A stretch of 64,000 nucleotides of DNA from a virus. Where the stretch lies: positions 1-64,000 of the IMG/VR virus record IMGVR_UViG_3300022926_000007; one strand, written 5' to 3'. Positions within the stretch are counted from its first letter, which is position 1, and every line of letters starts with the position of its first letter. Positions 4,653 through 54,950 of the stretch are shown piece after piece. Under the pieces are notes generated by a model. That model was not told the origin of the DNA. It did no database searches and was given only the letters and a program-made list of their open reading frames with translations. The translations under genes and the position numbers were made by a program.

Positions 4653-5525
4653 TTATTTAAGTTTGTCAAAAATTACAGGTTGATAATTTTCTATTGATTT
4701 TGAGTAATCAAATGCCGTTCTCCATAGTTGTCTATCTTTATTTTTAACAGCTGATCTTCTATGACTTGTAATTAGTTGATCCATAAACAATAAATCACCC
4801 TTTCTAAACACATGGTGTATCATGTATTTTGATCTTGTTACATCATTCCATAATTTATTATAAAATGTATCAAAATCTTCTATTTCTTTACCATCTCTAT
4901 ACCATGCTTTATATAGATAGATAAACATAGGATACAAATATTCTTTGCCGTTTACAGGATGTTTTGCAACTAAAGGTCGTCTATCTATTTCTTCTTTATA
5001 ATGTTTTTGTCCTGTTCTAAAGTTTTGTTCACCAACATTTTTGTATGCTTTAGAATAGACACCATCATCTCTCCATATTCGTGCTCGATCACCTTCATTA
5101 TTAAGATTTATATCTATACTTCTATAATAATTTTTATCTTCTTCAGATAAATTTTCAAAAGCATATTGTTGATTTACAATTGAAAGAACAGTATCTATAC
5201 ATTCTTCAACACAATATAATCCTACACAAATTTCTTTAAAGTTATATCTTCCAGTACCATTTGCATGCCATTCTAGTTCTGTTGGACCAAACATACCAAT
5301 TGGTTTGCCATTAATAACAGCACCTGACACAATACTTATTTGTGGTGAGTCTTTTGGATTCATAAAGTAGTCCAATTCTTCTACCTCACCTATTCTTGCA
5401 CAAACTTGAGCAAGTTGCTGTCTTGTTAAATCTTGTTCATGTAAAACAACAGAGCCTTCATTAACAATTTTATAAACTAATTCTGTTAACTCTTTATCTG
5501 TATAATTTATTATTTGTTTACTCAT
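4653..5525 (-). CDS. TauD/TfdA-like Fe(II)/2-oxoglutarate oxygenase, Asn variant
   Basis: About 290 aa with TauD-like landmarks: the first metal-site motif is ELEWHANGTGR (His87-x-Asn89) and the distal region is GDLLFMDQLITSHRR (His255, Arg257, the latter for 2-oxoglutarate). In TauD enzymes the first motif is HxD or HxE; here Asp is replaced by Asn, and the paralogue at 8162-8977 has the same change. Either an unusual iron site or altered chemistry is implied. The start at 5525 is preferred over 5552 because its ATG overlaps the previous stop as ATGA, like most junctions in this operon. Last gene of the leftward arm of the island. Substrate unknown. Confidence 0.75.
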   Translation of the reverse strand: MSKQIINYTDKELTELVYKIVNEGSVVLHEQDLTRQQLAQVCARIGEVEELDYFMNPKDSPQISIVSGAVINGKPIGMFGPTELEWHANGTGRYNFKEICVGLYCVEECIDTVLSIVNQQYAFENLSEEDKNYYRSIDINLNNEGDRARIWRDDGVYSKAYKNVGEQNFRTGQKHYKEEIDRRPLVAKHPVNGKEYLYPMFIYLYKAWYRDGKEIEDFDTFYNKLWNDVTRSKYMIHHVFRKGDLLFMDQLITSHRRSAVKNKDRQLWRTAFDYSKSIENYQPVIFDKLK

Positions 5526-17198: not shown

Positions 17199-18675
17199 AA
17201 TATATTCTGTAGCACTAAACTTACATGATCACAATACCTATGATGGTGTGTTTCATAATCAAAGAGAAAGATTTACAAGATTTAAACATAATCTACCTTA
17301 TCATGCTGAGGCTTATGCTCATCAATCAGATATTTTAAATCCTGCAGATTATAGACTAAACAATGAATTTGTAAAACAATATTTTGTTAGAAAAGAAGAT
17401 GTATTAGCATTTACATATACCTATGGTGGTGTTAGAATGTGTAAAGATATGTTACCGCAAGATGTATTCAAATATGAACCTAAAAAACTATGGGATTATT
17501 ACTACAAAGATGGATTATATTTTATAGATCATCATCAATCTCACGCCACTTATGCCTTTATTAATTCAGGTTTTGAACAATCGGATATATTAGCAATTGA
17601 TGGTATAGGATCAAAATATAGATGTGTGTTTTTTGATAAAGACCAAAATTTAATGGATTTGTCTGATAAGTTACCTATAGGTTGGTTATGGAATCATATG
17701 TCTAACTTTACAGGTTTTGGCACACTAGGTGCAAGTAAACTAATGGGACTAGTTGCATATGGTAAATTTAGTCAATACTACTATAATATTTTTCAAAGAA
17801 TATTAAACGGCCCGATTACTGAAAAAAAACAAGATTTTTCCTACATAAGTATAGACAATTATGGATTGCACGATTTAGCCCACACACTACAAGTATTTAC
17901 AATGGATAAGATAGAAGAATACGTATATCCACTAAAAAGTTGTGACAATCTTTGTATTGCTGGTGGTGTTGCATATAACGGTTATATGAATGAAGAATTT
18001 ACAAAACATTATAAAAATGTATTTGTACCACCTGCTGTTGGTGATGAAGGACAGGCAATCGGTACATATCAACACGCTGACTACATATTAAATAACAATA
18101 TACACAAATCAGAAACATTTGCTGGTAAACAATATGAATATAATGAAGGTGAACAAGTGAATTATAAAGAGGTTGCACAAGCAATTGCTGACGGTAAAAT
18201 AGTTGGTTGGTTTCAAGGAAAATCTGAAAGTGGCAATCGTGCATTAGGTAATAGAAGTATATTAGCTGATCCTCGTAATCCTGACATCAAAGATATTATT
18301 AATCATACCATAAAAATGAGAGAAGACTTTAGACCATTTGCACCTGCTGTTTTAGAAGAACACTATAAAGAATATTTTGATACAAGATTACCCAGTCCTT
18401 ATATGAGTAGAATATGTAAAGTTAAAACTGATAAAGTGCCAGGCATAACACATAAAGATAATACCGCAAGAATACAAACAGTTAATAAAAAATTTAATGA
18501 AAAGTTTTATAACATTATAAATGAGTTTTACAAAATAACAGGCGTACCAATGTTATTAAACACAAGTTTTAATTGTCAGGAACCCATAGTAGAAACACCC
18601 GAACAAGCTATTAGAACATTCAAACGAACAGCATTAGATATATTAGTTATAAATGATAAGATTTTAAAAAAATGA
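17191..18675 (+). CDS. Carbamoyltransferase (NodU/CmcH family), 494 aa
   Basis: N-terminal actin-like domain with YFIDHHQSHATYAF (metal-binding His pair) and ILAIDGIGSKYR, then CIAGGVAYNGYMN, VGDEGQAIGTY and a C-terminal YrdC-like part with WFQGKSESGNRALGNRSILA and MLLNTSFNCQEPI. These are signature segments of NodU/CmcH/TobZ O-carbamoyltransferases, which transfer carbamoyl from carbamoyl phosphate through carbamoyl-AMP to a hydroxyl of a sugar or antibiotic. It is somewhat shorter than the usual 540-600 aa, mainly before the HHxSHA motif. Suggests that the island product bears an O-carbamoyl group. Confidence 0.88.
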   Translation: MTKIYSVALNLHDHNTYDGVFHNQRERFTRFKHNLPYHAEAYAHQSDILNPADYRLNNEFVKQYFVRKEDVLAFTYTYGGVRMCKDMLPQDVFKYEPKKLWDYYYKDGLYFIDHHQSHATYAFINSGFEQSDILAIDGIGSKYRCVFFDKDQNLMDLSDKLPIGWLWNHMSNFTGFGTLGASKLMGLVAYGKFSQYYYNIFQRILNGPITEKKQDFSYISIDNYGLHDLAHTLQVFTMDKIEEYVYPLKSCDNLCIAGGVAYNGYMNEEFTKHYKNVFVPPAVGDEGQAIGTYQHADYILNNNIHKSETFAGKQYEYNEGEQVNYKEVAQAIADGKIVGWFQGKSESGNRALGNRSILADPRNPDIKDIINHTIKMREDFRPFAPAVLEEHYKEYFDTRLPSPYMSRICKVKTDKVPGITHKDNTARIQTVNKKFNEKFYNIINEFYKITGVPMLLNTSFNCQEPIVETPEQAIRTFKRTALDILVINDKILKK

Positions 18676-51088: not shown

Positions 51089-51526
51089 ATGAAAAAGAGA
51101 GCAACATATAAGGGTATTTACAGACCCACCAACCCTAGCAAATACGCTGGCGACCATACAAGAATAGTCTATCGTTCAAATTGGGAGCGTAAGTTTATGG
51201 TCTATTGTGATAAAAATGAGGATATTATATATTGGGCAAGTGAAGAATTAGCTATACCATATGTTAATCCACTTGATCGTAAAGTTCACCGTTACTATCC
51301 TGACTTTATCATAAAAACCAAAAAAGGCAAGCGTTATATGATAGAGATAAAACCATCAGCACAAACTAAAAAACCTACACCCAAACTAAAAAAATCAAAG
51401 GCATTTATGAGGGAGAGTTTAGAGTATATCAAAAATGTGGCTAAATGGCAAGCCGCTGATGTCTATTGTAATGATAATGGTTTAGAATTTAAAATCTTTA
51501 CTGAAAAAGAATTAGGTATTTACTAA
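51089..51526 (+). CDS. 4: Head completion nuclease-like protein gp4, about 145 aa
   Basis: MKKRATYKGIYRPTNPSKYA, then IVYRSNWERKFMVYCDKNED, IIYWASEELAIPYVNPLDRK and HRYYPDFIIKTKKGKRYMIE with IKPSAQT match gp4 of T4-like phages (150 aa). The pattern PDF...IEIKP is the D-(E)xK core of a PD-(D/E)XK nuclease, with the YRSxWE segment as helix 1. The start at 51089 is taken since the late promoter and gap precede it. gp4 is needed for head-tail joining. It is the only rightward gene within the leftward hub cluster and overlaps the tape-measure stop by four bases. Confidence 0.85.
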   Translation: MKKRATYKGIYRPTNPSKYAGDHTRIVYRSNWERKFMVYCDKNEDIIYWASEELAIPYVNPLDRKVHRYYPDFIIKTKKGKRYMIEIKPSAQTKKPTPKLKKSKAFMRESLEYIKNVAKWQAADVYCNDNGLEFKIFTEKELGIY

Positions 51527-53721
51527 AAGTCGTTTACTCTCTCAGCATAGTTGTCAACATCAACATTTAATTTACCTGTGTAAATATTTTGATTACTATT
51601 ATTACTTACATTATTGACATTGTTATTTGATACTGCCATAGCAGAAGCGGCCTGTGTTGATTGACCTGAATCTAATATGTCTTTTACACTTCTCAAATCA
51701 TTTGGTTTAAACTTGTTCAAAACTGGTGAATCTGGTGGGTAATATTTACCATCTTCAGGATTTAAAACCATATTCATCATTCTATCTTTTGCTATATCTG
51801 CTCTTGTTTTAGGTTTTGTTTCTGTTGGTATATCACCGAATTGAGCATTTTCTTCAGGCATTTTATTTTTATCCATAATTGCCATAGTAGCAGCCGATAT
51901 AGGACTAACTTTTGCTAAACCTCTCAATACTGTTTTAAATTTAGAAAATATACTTTTCTTATCGCCTGGTTTTTGTGTTTCAGTCTGATCGCCAGCAGCA
52001 TTTTCCATAGCAGCTTCTCCAGCAATATCGCCTGCTGTGCCTGCCTCTTCTCCTTGAAAACCTTTGAAGAAACCTTTAACTTTATCAAACATTGTTTTAC
52101 CTGCTTCTTCGGTTCCTATTTTTTTAGCATCAGCATAAGCGTTTTGTTGTGCTCTATTAATAATCTCACTTGCTTTATTATTTCTAATCATACCATTAAA
52201 ATATGCTGCTGAAGCAAATCCTAAATTTCTACCTCTGCCAAATATTTGATCTTGTACTTTATCAAATATTATCTTTTCAGCGTCTTTAGCTTTATCAGGA
52301 TCATTTTTTAATAATTTTTGAAAGTCTTTATTTTTATATAATTCATAGTAATATCCAAATATATCGTTATATAACTTCATATAACCATTTTTAGCAATTT
52401 CTTGTTCGGCATCATTTAAATTAATTTGACTAGTTTTTGATACAGCAAATTTCTTACCATCTTTTTCAATAATATCTTCGGTACTTCTAGCTCCTTCACC
52501 CTCTTTTAATTCTCTACTTTGACCAGCAAAAGTATCACCAAACATCATTTTATCAAAATCAGCACTTGATTTTTGTCCTGCTTTAGTTTTTCCTAATTTC
52601 AATCTCTCTACCGCTAATATTGAAGCCATATCTCCTTCAACACCTGTAACTTTTCCACCCTCAACTTTTGCTGTAGCTGATAAATCAGGTTTTTTAGTCA
52701 TATCAATGCCTTTTTTGGCCTCTTTCATTTCAGGTGCTTTCTCAGCTTCTTTACTTAAATCTTTAGGATTAAGTTTATCGTAATTATATTTTTTAGCCAG
52801 TTCTTCTTCATTTTTTTTCTTTTTAGCCGCTTCTGCTTCTTTTTCTGCTTTAGTTTTAAATAATCCTTTACCTAATTTAGAACCACCAAAACCACCTATT
52901 AAACCACCTATTAAACCACCGATTGCCGTACCTATTACAGGAACAACAGAACCAATAGCAGCACCAGTAGCCGCTCCAGCAAGAGATCCAGCTACAGCAC
53001 CTCCTGTTCCTACCATACTTTCTTGTGCCTCACTAGCGCCGTAATCATCACCTTCAGCTTGTGATTTTTTCATATCAGAATAATCTAACATCAAAGATGG
53101 TATAGCAAATAGAGCAGATAAGACACCAGCTTTACCTGTAGCCATTTTTGATAAACCTCCTAAACTTCTTTTTCCTAATGCTTTTGCTGTACCACCTACA
53201 CCTAATTTTTTAGCAGCTCTAGGGTCATAACCTTTATTTACACCAAAAAATCTTTCAGTACCTCCACCTAATTTTGAACCTCTTAATTTTAGTAATTGTT
53301 TAGCACCAGCAGTTCCAGCAGTACCTAGTCCTAAAAATGCTAATGCTTTACCCATAATCCCCATTCCACCACCTTCACCACTCATTGTTTTAGGTGAGCC
53401 TGTTACACCACTAGGACCCATAGCACCACCTCTTGCCATAGTTTTTTTTAGTTCTCTGGCTAATTCAGTTTGTTGATCTTTAGCTCTACGCTGTTTATCT
53501 CTTTCAAAACCTACCATAGCAGACATTGAATAAGATATTTTTTGTAAATGATTGTTTTGTTTTAAACTATTTTCTTTTAAATCAGATAATATTTTATTTT
53601 CTTTAATTTCAATATCTAAACTATCTTTATTACCCATAACACGTCTACCACCTAAATTAGGTTTCATAGACTTAACTACTTCTTTTGCTAATTCGTCTTT
53701 TAGTACATATTGTTCGGGCAT
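51523..53721 (-). CDS. Tape measure / baseplate hub protein (gp29-like), 732 aa
   Basis: Helical N-terminal region with coiled-coil (IEIKENKILSDLKENSLKQN), Gly-rich GMGIMGKALAFLGLGTAGT, hydrophobic Ala/Gly segments (GAVAGSLAGAATGAAIGSVV, PVIGTAIGGLIGGLIGGFGG), long Lys/Glu-rich helical tracts and an Asn-rich tail (SNNNVNNVSNNSNQN). This is the composition of tape measure proteins; it lies between the chaperone-like genes and gp48, as T4 gp29 (590 aa) is functionally placed. Length sets tail length. Assigned on composition and gene order. Confidence 0.75.
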   Translation of the reverse strand: MPEQYVLKDELAKEVVKSMKPNLGGRRVMGNKDSLDIEIKENKILSDLKENSLKQNNHLQKISYSMSAMVGFERDKQRRAKDQQTELARELKKTMARGGAMGPSGVTGSPKTMSGEGGGMGIMGKALAFLGLGTAGTAGAKQLLKLRGSKLGGGTERFFGVNKGYDPRAAKKLGVGGTAKALGKRSLGGLSKMATGKAGVLSALFAIPSLMLDYSDMKKSQAEGDDYGASEAQESMVGTGGAVAGSLAGAATGAAIGSVVPVIGTAIGGLIGGLIGGFGGSKLGKGLFKTKAEKEAEAAKKKKNEEELAKKYNYDKLNPKDLSKEAEKAPEMKEAKKGIDMTKKPDLSATAKVEGGKVTGVEGDMASILAVERLKLGKTKAGQKSSADFDKMMFGDTFAGQSRELKEGEGARSTEDIIEKDGKKFAVSKTSQINLNDAEQEIAKNGYMKLYNDIFGYYYELYKNKDFQKLLKNDPDKAKDAEKIIFDKVQDQIFGRGRNLGFASAAYFNGMIRNNKASEIINRAQQNAYADAKKIGTEEAGKTMFDKVKGFFKGFQGEEAGTAGDIAGEAAMENAAGDQTETQKPGDKKSIFSKFKTVLRGLAKVSPISAATMAIMDKNKMPEENAQFGDIPTETKPKTRADIAKDRMMNMVLNPEDGKYYPPDSPVLNKFKPNDLRSVKDILDSGQSTQAASAMAVSNNNVNNVSNNSNQNIYTGKLNVDVDNYAERVNDF

Positions 53722-53725
53722 TTAA

Positions 53726-54055
53726 TTATTTCTTATCTGATTTTGCTCTACTACCTGTGTATAGACCAAACCAAGCCGCTCCAGCACCAACTACGATTGA
53801 TACTAAGCCTGATTGTTCCATAGTAGGACTTGATAAATTCATATACCAAATTACTACTTTATATAATAGATAAATGTATGTAGATATAAACACTCTTGGA
53901 AATATTCTCCAACTATCTACTGCTCTTGCCAAATGAATTAATTTAGCGTATGGATTAGGTCCTAAATCTTTTACAGATGTGTCAACTTCTAATTCTACGT
54001 TTACTTTTTTTGATACCTCTTTTTTATCAGATGGTACTGTAATACTCTCTTCCAT
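53726..54055 (-). CDS. Small membrane protein, holin-like candidate, 109 aa
   Basis: Residues 1-45 are polar; two hydrophobic stretches follow, VFISTYIYLLYKVVIWYM and SGLVSIVVGAGAAWFGLYTG, ending in a basic tail SRAKSDKK. Two helices, a short loop and a positive C-terminus fit class II holins, and a conserved PTMEQSGLVSxVVGAGAAWF stretch is familiar from marine myoviruses (recalled). No lysis gene is adjacent, the M15 endolysin being at 61131-61598. TAATG overlap with the frameshift ORF. Confidence 0.6.
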   Translation of the reverse strand: MEESITVPSDKKEVSKKVNVELEVDTSVKDLGPNPYAKLIHLARAVDSWRIFPRVFISTYIYLLYKVVIWYMNLSSPTMEQSGLVSIVVGAGAAWFGLYTGSRAKSDKK

Positions 54056-54240
54056 TACTTCATCTCCCTTTTTCTTTTATCACGCTCTTCTTTTAGATGA
54101 GCGACCAACAGATTGATATACACCTCCCTCTCCCAAGGCAACATATTTTCTAACTCCGTCAATGAATATTTATGATGTTGCATCAAAGCAAAGTTAGTTT
54201 CAAAATAGTTTTGTAAACTATCGTGTGAGAGGGCTATCCG
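54055..54240 (-). CDS. Short frame expressed by -1 frameshift from gp26 (61 aa)
   Basis: An open frame without a good start: from the slippery site it reads RIALSHDSLQNYFETNF then ALMQHHKYSLTELENMLPWE and REVYINLLVAHLKEERDKRK. The first possible ATG is 20 codons in (54183), yet the preceding residues look like genuine protein. A perfect T TTT TTC heptamer at 54240-54246 immediately before the gp26 stop would join it to gp26 by a -1 shift. Its position between gp26 and the tape measure is that of the T part of G/GT-type tail chaperones. An independent 42-aa product from 54183 remains possible. Confidence 0.7.
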   Translation of the reverse strand, partial: RIALSHDSLQNYFETNFALMQHHKYSLTELENMLPWEREVYINLLVAHLKEERDKRKREMK

Positions 54241-54246
54241 AAAAAA
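54205..54246 (-). promoter_or_regulatory. -1 frameshift signal: slippery heptamer plus hairpin
   Basis: Minus strand GAT TTT TTC GGA TAG: the heptamer T TTT TTC (54240-54246) is followed three bases later by the gp26 stop, and 18 bases beyond the heptamer by a 7-bp hairpin ATAGTTT/AAACTAT with an ACA loop (54205-54221). All parts are directly visible; frameshifting itself is inferred. Confidence 0.7.
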
Positions 54247-54950
54247 TCGTATAATCCTTCCAATGTTACCTTACTTTTAACATTGGTCTTTGGATTTACA
54301 ACTTCTACCTCTTTTGTCAATTTAGGTGCCGTATCATAAAATCTCTTAATTTTATTTAATATTTGAGCATCTAAATTTTCTAAAAATTCGTTCATCTCCT
54401 CTTTAGTGTAATCAGAACCAGTATATGTTTTTTCACCATAATATATTGTATCAATACCTCTTGCCATTATATTAAATAAGTCTGCTGTATCGGCCGCTGT
54501 TAAGTCTTTAATTTCCTCAACATCATCAATACTAGGATATCTTAAAAATATTCCTATTTTCTTATCTTTATCAATAACAATCTCATTTGAATGTTCTTCA
54601 TCAACTTGAACCTCTATTTTAGTTAAGTCAATATCAACATCAGCATAAGTTTCATTGTCATCAGGACATAATACTTTTAATTTTGAAATCTCACCTACTG
54701 ACTTTGCTCGTATTTGTAAAAATACATATTCAAGGTCAAATAGTGGAGAGTTTTCTACATCAATAGTATTAAATGTACAAGATTTTACAATATCTTTTAC
54801 AGCACGAATAAGTGCTTGTTGTCCACCATCTTCTAAAGCCAATAATAAAACTTTTTCTTCTTTTACTAAAAAAGGTCTATATTCTATTTTTTGATCTTTA
54901 GAGGGAAGTGTCAACTCATATCTTGGCGCCTCAATTTTTGGTAAAGCCAT
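54234..54950 (-). CDS. 26: Baseplate hub assembly protein gp26-like, 238 aa
   Basis: ALPKIEAPRYELTLPSKDQK, EYRPFLVKEEKVLLLALEDG, DLEYVFLQIRAKSVGEISKL and PDDNETYADVDIDLTKIEV are strong matches to the gp26/gp51 T4 base-plate family (PF12322-type), and the C-terminus NPKTNVKSKVTLEGLYDFFG is the family's usual end. Length close to T4 gp26 (208) and gp51 (249). Acts in hub assembly; gene position suggests a tail-assembly chaperone. A -1 shift at its last codons would add 61 residues. Confidence 0.85.
   Translation of the reverse strand: MALPKIEAPRYELTLPSKDQKIEYRPFLVKEEKVLLLALEDGGQQALIRAVKDIVKSCTFNTIDVENSPLFDLEYVFLQIRAKSVGEISKLKVLCPDDNETYADVDIDLTKIEVQVDEEHSNEIVIDKDKKIGIFLRYPSIDDVEEIKDLTAADTADLFNIMARGIDTIYYGEKTYTGSDYTKEEMNEFLENLDAQILNKIKRFYDTAPKLTKEVEVVNPKTNVKSKVTLEGLYDFFG

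Follow-up and report, generated by a model that had tools for sequence, protein, structure and literature searches.

A gp26 gene and the open frame that continues past its stop codon in the −1 register very likely (probability about 0.93) encode the short and long tail assembly chaperones (TACs) of a T4-like phage related to the pelagiphages. Specifically, in the 64,000-nucleotide stretch of viral DNA analyzed here, which we call the window, gp26 would be TAC-N (238 aa), and a −1 frameshift would fuse it to a gp51 domain to give TAC-NC (298 aa). Programmed −1 frameshifting is very probably by far the best explanation of the arrangement. A sequence-only reading of the window had proposed such a frameshift and likened the product's location to that of the frameshifted tail chaperones of other phages. 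The conserved site, the pN/pS values, and the profile matches support that proposal, and the gp26 structure model fits it with middling scores.

We envision the following mechanism. The majority of ribosomes would terminate at the TAG at 54236, yielding the short TAC-N. At the heptamer T TTT TTC, a minority would move back by one base as 16S rRNA pairs with the sequence GGAAGGA, located 8 nt upstream. Slipped ribosomes would append the 61-residue gp51 domain, yielding the long TAC-NC. Like gpG and gpGT of phage lambda, the two forms probably cover the tape measure protein, whose gene lies downstream, and bring in tail tube subunits.

Organization of the gp26–gp51 locus

The features of the locus, all on the minus strand of the window, are as follows.

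54950..54234, minus strand: gp26, predicted short form TAC-N, 238 aa (PF12322, phrog_150, AF2 model)
54255..54261, minus strand: Shine-Dalgarno (SD)-like GGAAGGA, 8 nt 5′ of the heptamer (sequence; pairing peak and synonymous codon bias in relatives)
54246..54240, minus strand: slippery heptamer T TTT TTC (sequence; 167 of 174 related loci have it in register)
54234..54236, minus strand: gp26 zero-frame stop TAG, one codon (GGA) past the heptamer (sequence)
54055..54240, minus strand: −1 extension, the gp51 domain (TAC-C), 61 codons plus TAA (phrog_634, phrog_150, pN/pS)
54221..54205, minus strand: 7-bp hairpin ATAGTTT-ACA-AAACTAT (sequence; functional role unsupported)
54181..54183, minus strand: internal ATG; annotated gp51 starts of relatives are usually of this kind (sequence)
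54057..54055, minus strand: −1 frame stop TAA (sequence)
53726..54055, minus strand: gene encoding 109 aa (match to phrog_10198, family function unknown)
51523..53721, minus strand: probable tape measure protein, 732 aa (phrog_794, tail length tape measure, E 1.5e-11)

The 3′ end of gp26 reads GAA GGA TTA TAC GAT TTT TTC GGA TAG, so the heptamer does lie one codon before the stop, as had been claimed. Following a slip on the heptamer, the −1 reading is FF-RIALSHDSLQNYFETNFALMQHHKYSLTELENMLPWEREVYINLLVAHLKEERDKRKREMK, with 61 codons past Phe-Phe. The predicted gp26–gp51 fusion is 298 aa long, and its sequence across the shift point is DFFRIALSHDSL. The ATG of the 109-aa gene overlaps the stop of the gp51 domain (TAATG). 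That gene is the only one separating gp26 and its −1 extension from the probable tape measure gene. The placement ahead of a probable tape measure gene, a location typical of TACs, is confirmed, with one small gene intervening, and the tape measure protein is probably the client expected for gp26/gp51 chaperones. Upstream of gp26 lie a tail-tube-like gene and a gene for a DNA end protector. Among named phages, pelagiphages are the closest: the adjoining single-stranded DNA-binding gene shares 83% DNA identity with those of Mosig and HTVC008M, and the closest gp26–gp51 is that of Mosig (57%).

gp26 and gp51 are homologous, and the predicted gp26 fold may be chaperone-like

Over its full length, gp26 matches PF12322 (E 1e-61) and phrog_150 (E 8e-68). 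The −1 product, which had been called protein-like from its letters, is recognizable as gp51: it matches phrog_634, the baseplate hub assembly catalyst family (E 4e-28, model positions 56-115 of 121), and it also aligns to positions 231-281 of phrog_150. In T4, gp51 combines both parts. Its residues 1-201 match PF12322 (E 4e-52), and its phrog_150 match spans both domains. T4 gp26 and T4 gp51 find one another by BLASTP (2e-6 in a single comparison), and the gp26 profile matches the T4-type gp51 profile (E 5e-11, 97%). T4 gp51 thus joins a gp26-like domain and this C-terminal domain within a single frame, and the system is therefore a short/long TAC pair of the lambda G/GT type. Genes 26 and 51 of T4 are separate and divergently transcribed. 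Given their homology, T4 has one gene for the short form (gp26) and another for the long form (gp51). The long form would thus arise by frameshifting from one gene in the window phage and by the use of two genes in T4. T4 gp51 is needed for assembly yet absent from the final particle (PMC3004832).

The AF2 model of gp26 has a pLDDT of 91. Foldseek against the PDB returned no significant match for gp26 or for T4 gp51. In a second look, and only there, TAC structures came to the top for gp26: the best matches were 3FGX (Z 7.8), the HK97 TAC 2OB9 (Z 7.6), and Bacillus subtilis YqbN 3KLU (Z 6.8), all middling by the tool's scale, on which middling means Z below 8; the next entry had Z 5.1. The T4 gp51 model matched 2OB9 with a Z of only 3.7. 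The predicted gp26 fold thus fits a tail assembly chaperone with middling Z values. Homology, gene position, and fold together suggest that gp26 and the fusion act as chaperones.

T4 gp28 was considered as a further paralog, on the strength of a weak hit of T4 gp26 (L081 2803-3429) to phrog_1140, the family of the gp28 hub distal subunit (E 9e-4). The idea was set aside, as Pfam lent it no support.

The slippery heptamer is conserved among relatives

Long −1 continuations are common in the window because neighboring genes overlap: 22 of 65 long ORFs have at least 60 open −1 codons past the stop. Four window ORFs, gp26 included, have a slippery-type heptamer among their final three codons and also continue for 40 codons in the −1 frame. 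Two other long ORFs with long −1 continuations, one near 18672(+) ending in TTTAAAA/AAAAAAA and one near 5524(−) with AAATTTA, likely reflect ordinary gene overlap. Judged on this one sequence, the gp26 pattern is weak to moderate evidence, and the relatives decide.

To assemble relatives, viral contigs were scanned with four gp26 queries and isolate records were added, giving 174 loci, T4 excluded. The comparison across relatives that had been suggested as a check came out clearly: TTTTTTN in register, together with an open −1 frame, occurs in 167 of the 174 loci, representing 111 distinct sequences and 33 clusters (defined at <85% identity of the −1 peptide). Among the seven exceptions is one locus (L036) in which the site is present and the gp26 frame is broken; the rest are contigs that break off at the site or close to it. 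Over the 33 clusters, the heptamer is TTTTTTC in 28, TTTTTTT in three, and TTTTTTA in two. The codon preceding TTT TTC varies (AGT, GAT, AAT, TCT, GCT), yet it ends in T in 33 of 33 clusters, for which codon usage gives a chance of ~10^-6.3. The first Phe codon of the site is TTT in every cluster (codon-usage chance ~10^-4.9). In about 20 distinct sequences (most of L007-L023 and L026-L035), the gp26 stop lies eight codons past the heptamer rather than one, still inside the same overlap.

T4 gp51 is in effect a one-frame version of the fusion, an arrangement that could hint at a single gp26–gp51 gene split in the window by a sequencing or assembly error. The identical split and heptamer recur in more than 100 distinct sequences, and finished isolate genomes show them as well; this conservation refutes the error explanation, to which we assign a negligible probability.

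Protein-level constraint on −1 codons ahead of the internal ATG

In the window, −1 codons 1-18 contain no ATG, GTG, or TTG, in line with the earlier observation that the frame lacks an early initiator. The first candidates are TTG at codon 19 and ATG at codon 20 (54183). Across 53 disjoint pairs of related sequences, −1 codons 3-15, which precede the internal ATG, have a pN/pS of 0.15 (48 nonsynonymous and 73 synonymous changes), and third positions take 69 of the 121 changes. The same bases read in the other two frames give 1.67 and 1.15, and gp26 itself gives 0.17. In 30 of the 33 clusters, the −1 frame has no ATG, GTG, or TTG that could include the conserved first residues. Therefore, either ribosomes would shift from gp26, or the message would be altered by transcriptional slippage, which we judge unlikely.

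These data also bear on the idea that gp51 is a separate small protein, made either from the internal ATG at 54183 or by ribosomes that terminate at the gp26 stop and reinitiate, with the heptamer incidental. Internal starts are annotated in Mosig, Melnitz, and HTVC008M, the Mosig gp51 start being at the same kind of position as ATG 54183, and KVP40-like, Delftia, Stenotrophomonas, and Rhizobium phages have an ATG at the gp26 stop, overlapping it. Against a separate protein stand the strong −1-frame constraint on codons ahead of any start and the 30 clusters that lack a start covering them. In the window, moreover, no Shine-Dalgarno sequence precedes ATG 54183, and the corresponding Met is replaced by Val or Ile in some relatives. 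A separate gp51 would also leave unexplained both the invariant heptamer and the fused gp51 of T4. We consider it very improbable, and the internal ATG as sole start is rejected, since codons ahead of it are already constrained as protein.

A candidate stimulator upstream of the heptamer resembles a Shine-Dalgarno sequence

The preferred reading, ribosomal frameshifting, gains a candidate stimulator from the relatives, in which an SD-like GAGGG/AAGGA located 8 nt upstream of the heptamer is preserved through synonymous codon choice. When 8-mers were scanned against the 16S tail, a sharp pairing peak appeared for those ending 7-9 nt 5′ of the heptamer (mean −6.4 versus 0.1 kcal/mol background). 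Because the peptide at this position is mostly Glu-Gly-Leu, codon choice was tested. The Glu codon is GAG at 16 of 21 sites versus 31% elsewhere in gp26 (p 2.7e-5), and the Gly codon is GGA or GGG at 23 of 31 sites versus 34% (p 5.7e-6), with both p values somewhat overstated, as they take clusters as independent. This codon-level bias supports a genuine Shine-Dalgarno-like stimulator.

The downstream hairpin fares less well. The sequence-only reading was correct that a 7-bp hairpin follows the heptamer; it starts 18 nt beyond it. Its folding z is −1.33, with 24 of 200 shuffles folding equally well or better, and the relatives contain no consensus counterpart of it and no conserved downstream structure. 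As a frameshift stimulator, the hairpin is rejected because it is unconserved and its z-score is weak. Thus, the upstream element is the better candidate.

The alternative of transcriptional slippage, in which the −1 product derives from RNA polymerase slipping on the T tract, draws on the run of six Ts and on a run of eight in HTVC008M. Six Ts, however, are short for RNA polymerase slippage. Moreover, the run is followed by C or A, in step with the gp26 codons, in 106 of the 111 distinct sequences, and the SD-like element is conserved at a distance resembling that found at ribosomal −1 sites. We regard transcriptional slippage as marginally less probable even than a separate gp51.

Relation to known frameshifting systems

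In phage lambda, a −1 frameshift late in the gene for the short form gpG, 5′ of the tape measure gene, adds a C-terminal domain to yield gpGT. The window locus is alike in the location of the proposed shift close to where the short form ends, its position upstream of the tape measure, and the extra C-terminal domain. It differs in having a longer, gp26-type N domain, a T TTT TTC site, a contractile-tailed phage as its bearer, and an additional 109-aa gene ahead of the tape measure gene. Escherichia coli dnaX has a slippery heptamer, an upstream Shine-Dalgarno stimulator ~10 nt away, and a downstream stem-loop, and its frameshift product is the shorter one. The heptamer and the upstream SD are shared with the window; the stem-loop and the shorter product set dnaX apart. 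Among T4-like phages, the abstract of a 2022 study by Vladimirov et al. reportedly names T4 genes 26 and 51 and describes frameshifting as conserved in several groups.

The sequence-only reading knew of no such description for gp26 of T4-like phages. That suggestion of novelty fails because tail assembly chaperone genes of T4-like phages had already been identified (Vladimirov, Gautam and Davidson 2022, Virology 566:9-15, as represented in the papers that cite it). According to those papers, some T4-like phages have a separate short gene and a fused long gene (PMC10885494), and poly-T −1 frameshift signals are known in their TAC-N genes (PMC12846349). As cited there, the T4-like gp26/gp51 TACs follow the same short TAC-N/long TAC-NC logic as the window, which adds a further member from a pelagiphage-like branch. 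Frameshifting in T4-like TACs is thus already known, and the window is a well-supported further case. In the TAC locus of Vandenendeviridae/Andersonviridae, a −1 frameshift occurs at the poly-T site GTTTTT, and the open −1 frame is misannotated as a separate gene (PMC12846349). The window would share the poly-T −1 frameshift; the slippery motif and the phage family differ.

The frameshift reading revises the annotation of many phage genomes, which either omit gp51 or give it as a truncated separate gene. It would also explain two reports from 2010: cyanophage gp51 was described as only ~20% of the length of T4 gp51, and Aeh1 as having no gp51 (Sullivan et al. 2010, PMC3037559), presumably because the gp51 domain is made by frameshifting in these phages. 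Finally, T4 gp26 and gp51, long named hub assembly proteins, are joined to the general tail-chaperone mechanism, in agreement with the 2022 report as its citing papers present it.

Variation among relatives

Aswh_1, Aeh1, Melnitz, and HTVC008M carry the heptamer site and have no usable start ahead of the conserved residues. In Aeh1, the −1 gp51 domain follows GAT TTT TTC GAC TGA. This domain is present yet unannotated past gp26 in both Aeh1 and Aswh_1 (L084 3130-3316; L200 near 1412). By contrast, KVP40-like vibriophages, Delftia W-14, Stenotrophomonas YB07, Rhizobium Y68, and Sinorhizobium M7 have, besides the T-run heptamer, an ATG that overlaps the stop codon of gp26 (TAATG/TGATG), so a fusion and a free gp51 domain are both possible there. 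Among the loci examined, this combination is seen in L083, L191, L194, L197, L198, L199, and L202. Vibriophages D493, 1.244, and VAP7 lack the heptamer and have TAATG.

Enterobacterial Ackermannviridae also lack the heptamer (..[GA]TT TTC AT[TC] T[AG]A); their −1 continuation is conserved and mostly start-less. Six such loci (L195, L196, L203-L206) have a conserved FHLIFEIDL...MPWHL domain in the −1 frame beyond the gp26 stop, frequently unannotated (Cba120, KpS110). A tetramer-like T TTC is the sole slippery candidate at their gp26 end.

We speculate that the gp26/gp51 family has repeatedly rebuilt its means of producing the long form, a possibility we hold tentatively and at somewhat less than even odds. 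Marine and Aeh1-like phages would rely on the heptamer and an internal SD, vibriophages and some others on the heptamer and an ATG overlapping the stop, T4 on gene duplication, and enterobacterial Ackermannviridae on the mostly start-less −1 continuation, in which T TTC would be a less usual slippery site.

In HTVC008M, the gp26 stop comes immediately after the slippery run of eight Ts (L209 655-662), and transcriptional slippage is more plausible in this phage than elsewhere. HTVC008M also has annotated curli secretion genes, csgF, csgG, and csgB, between its single-stranded DNA-binding and tape measure genes (L208 2563-4558).
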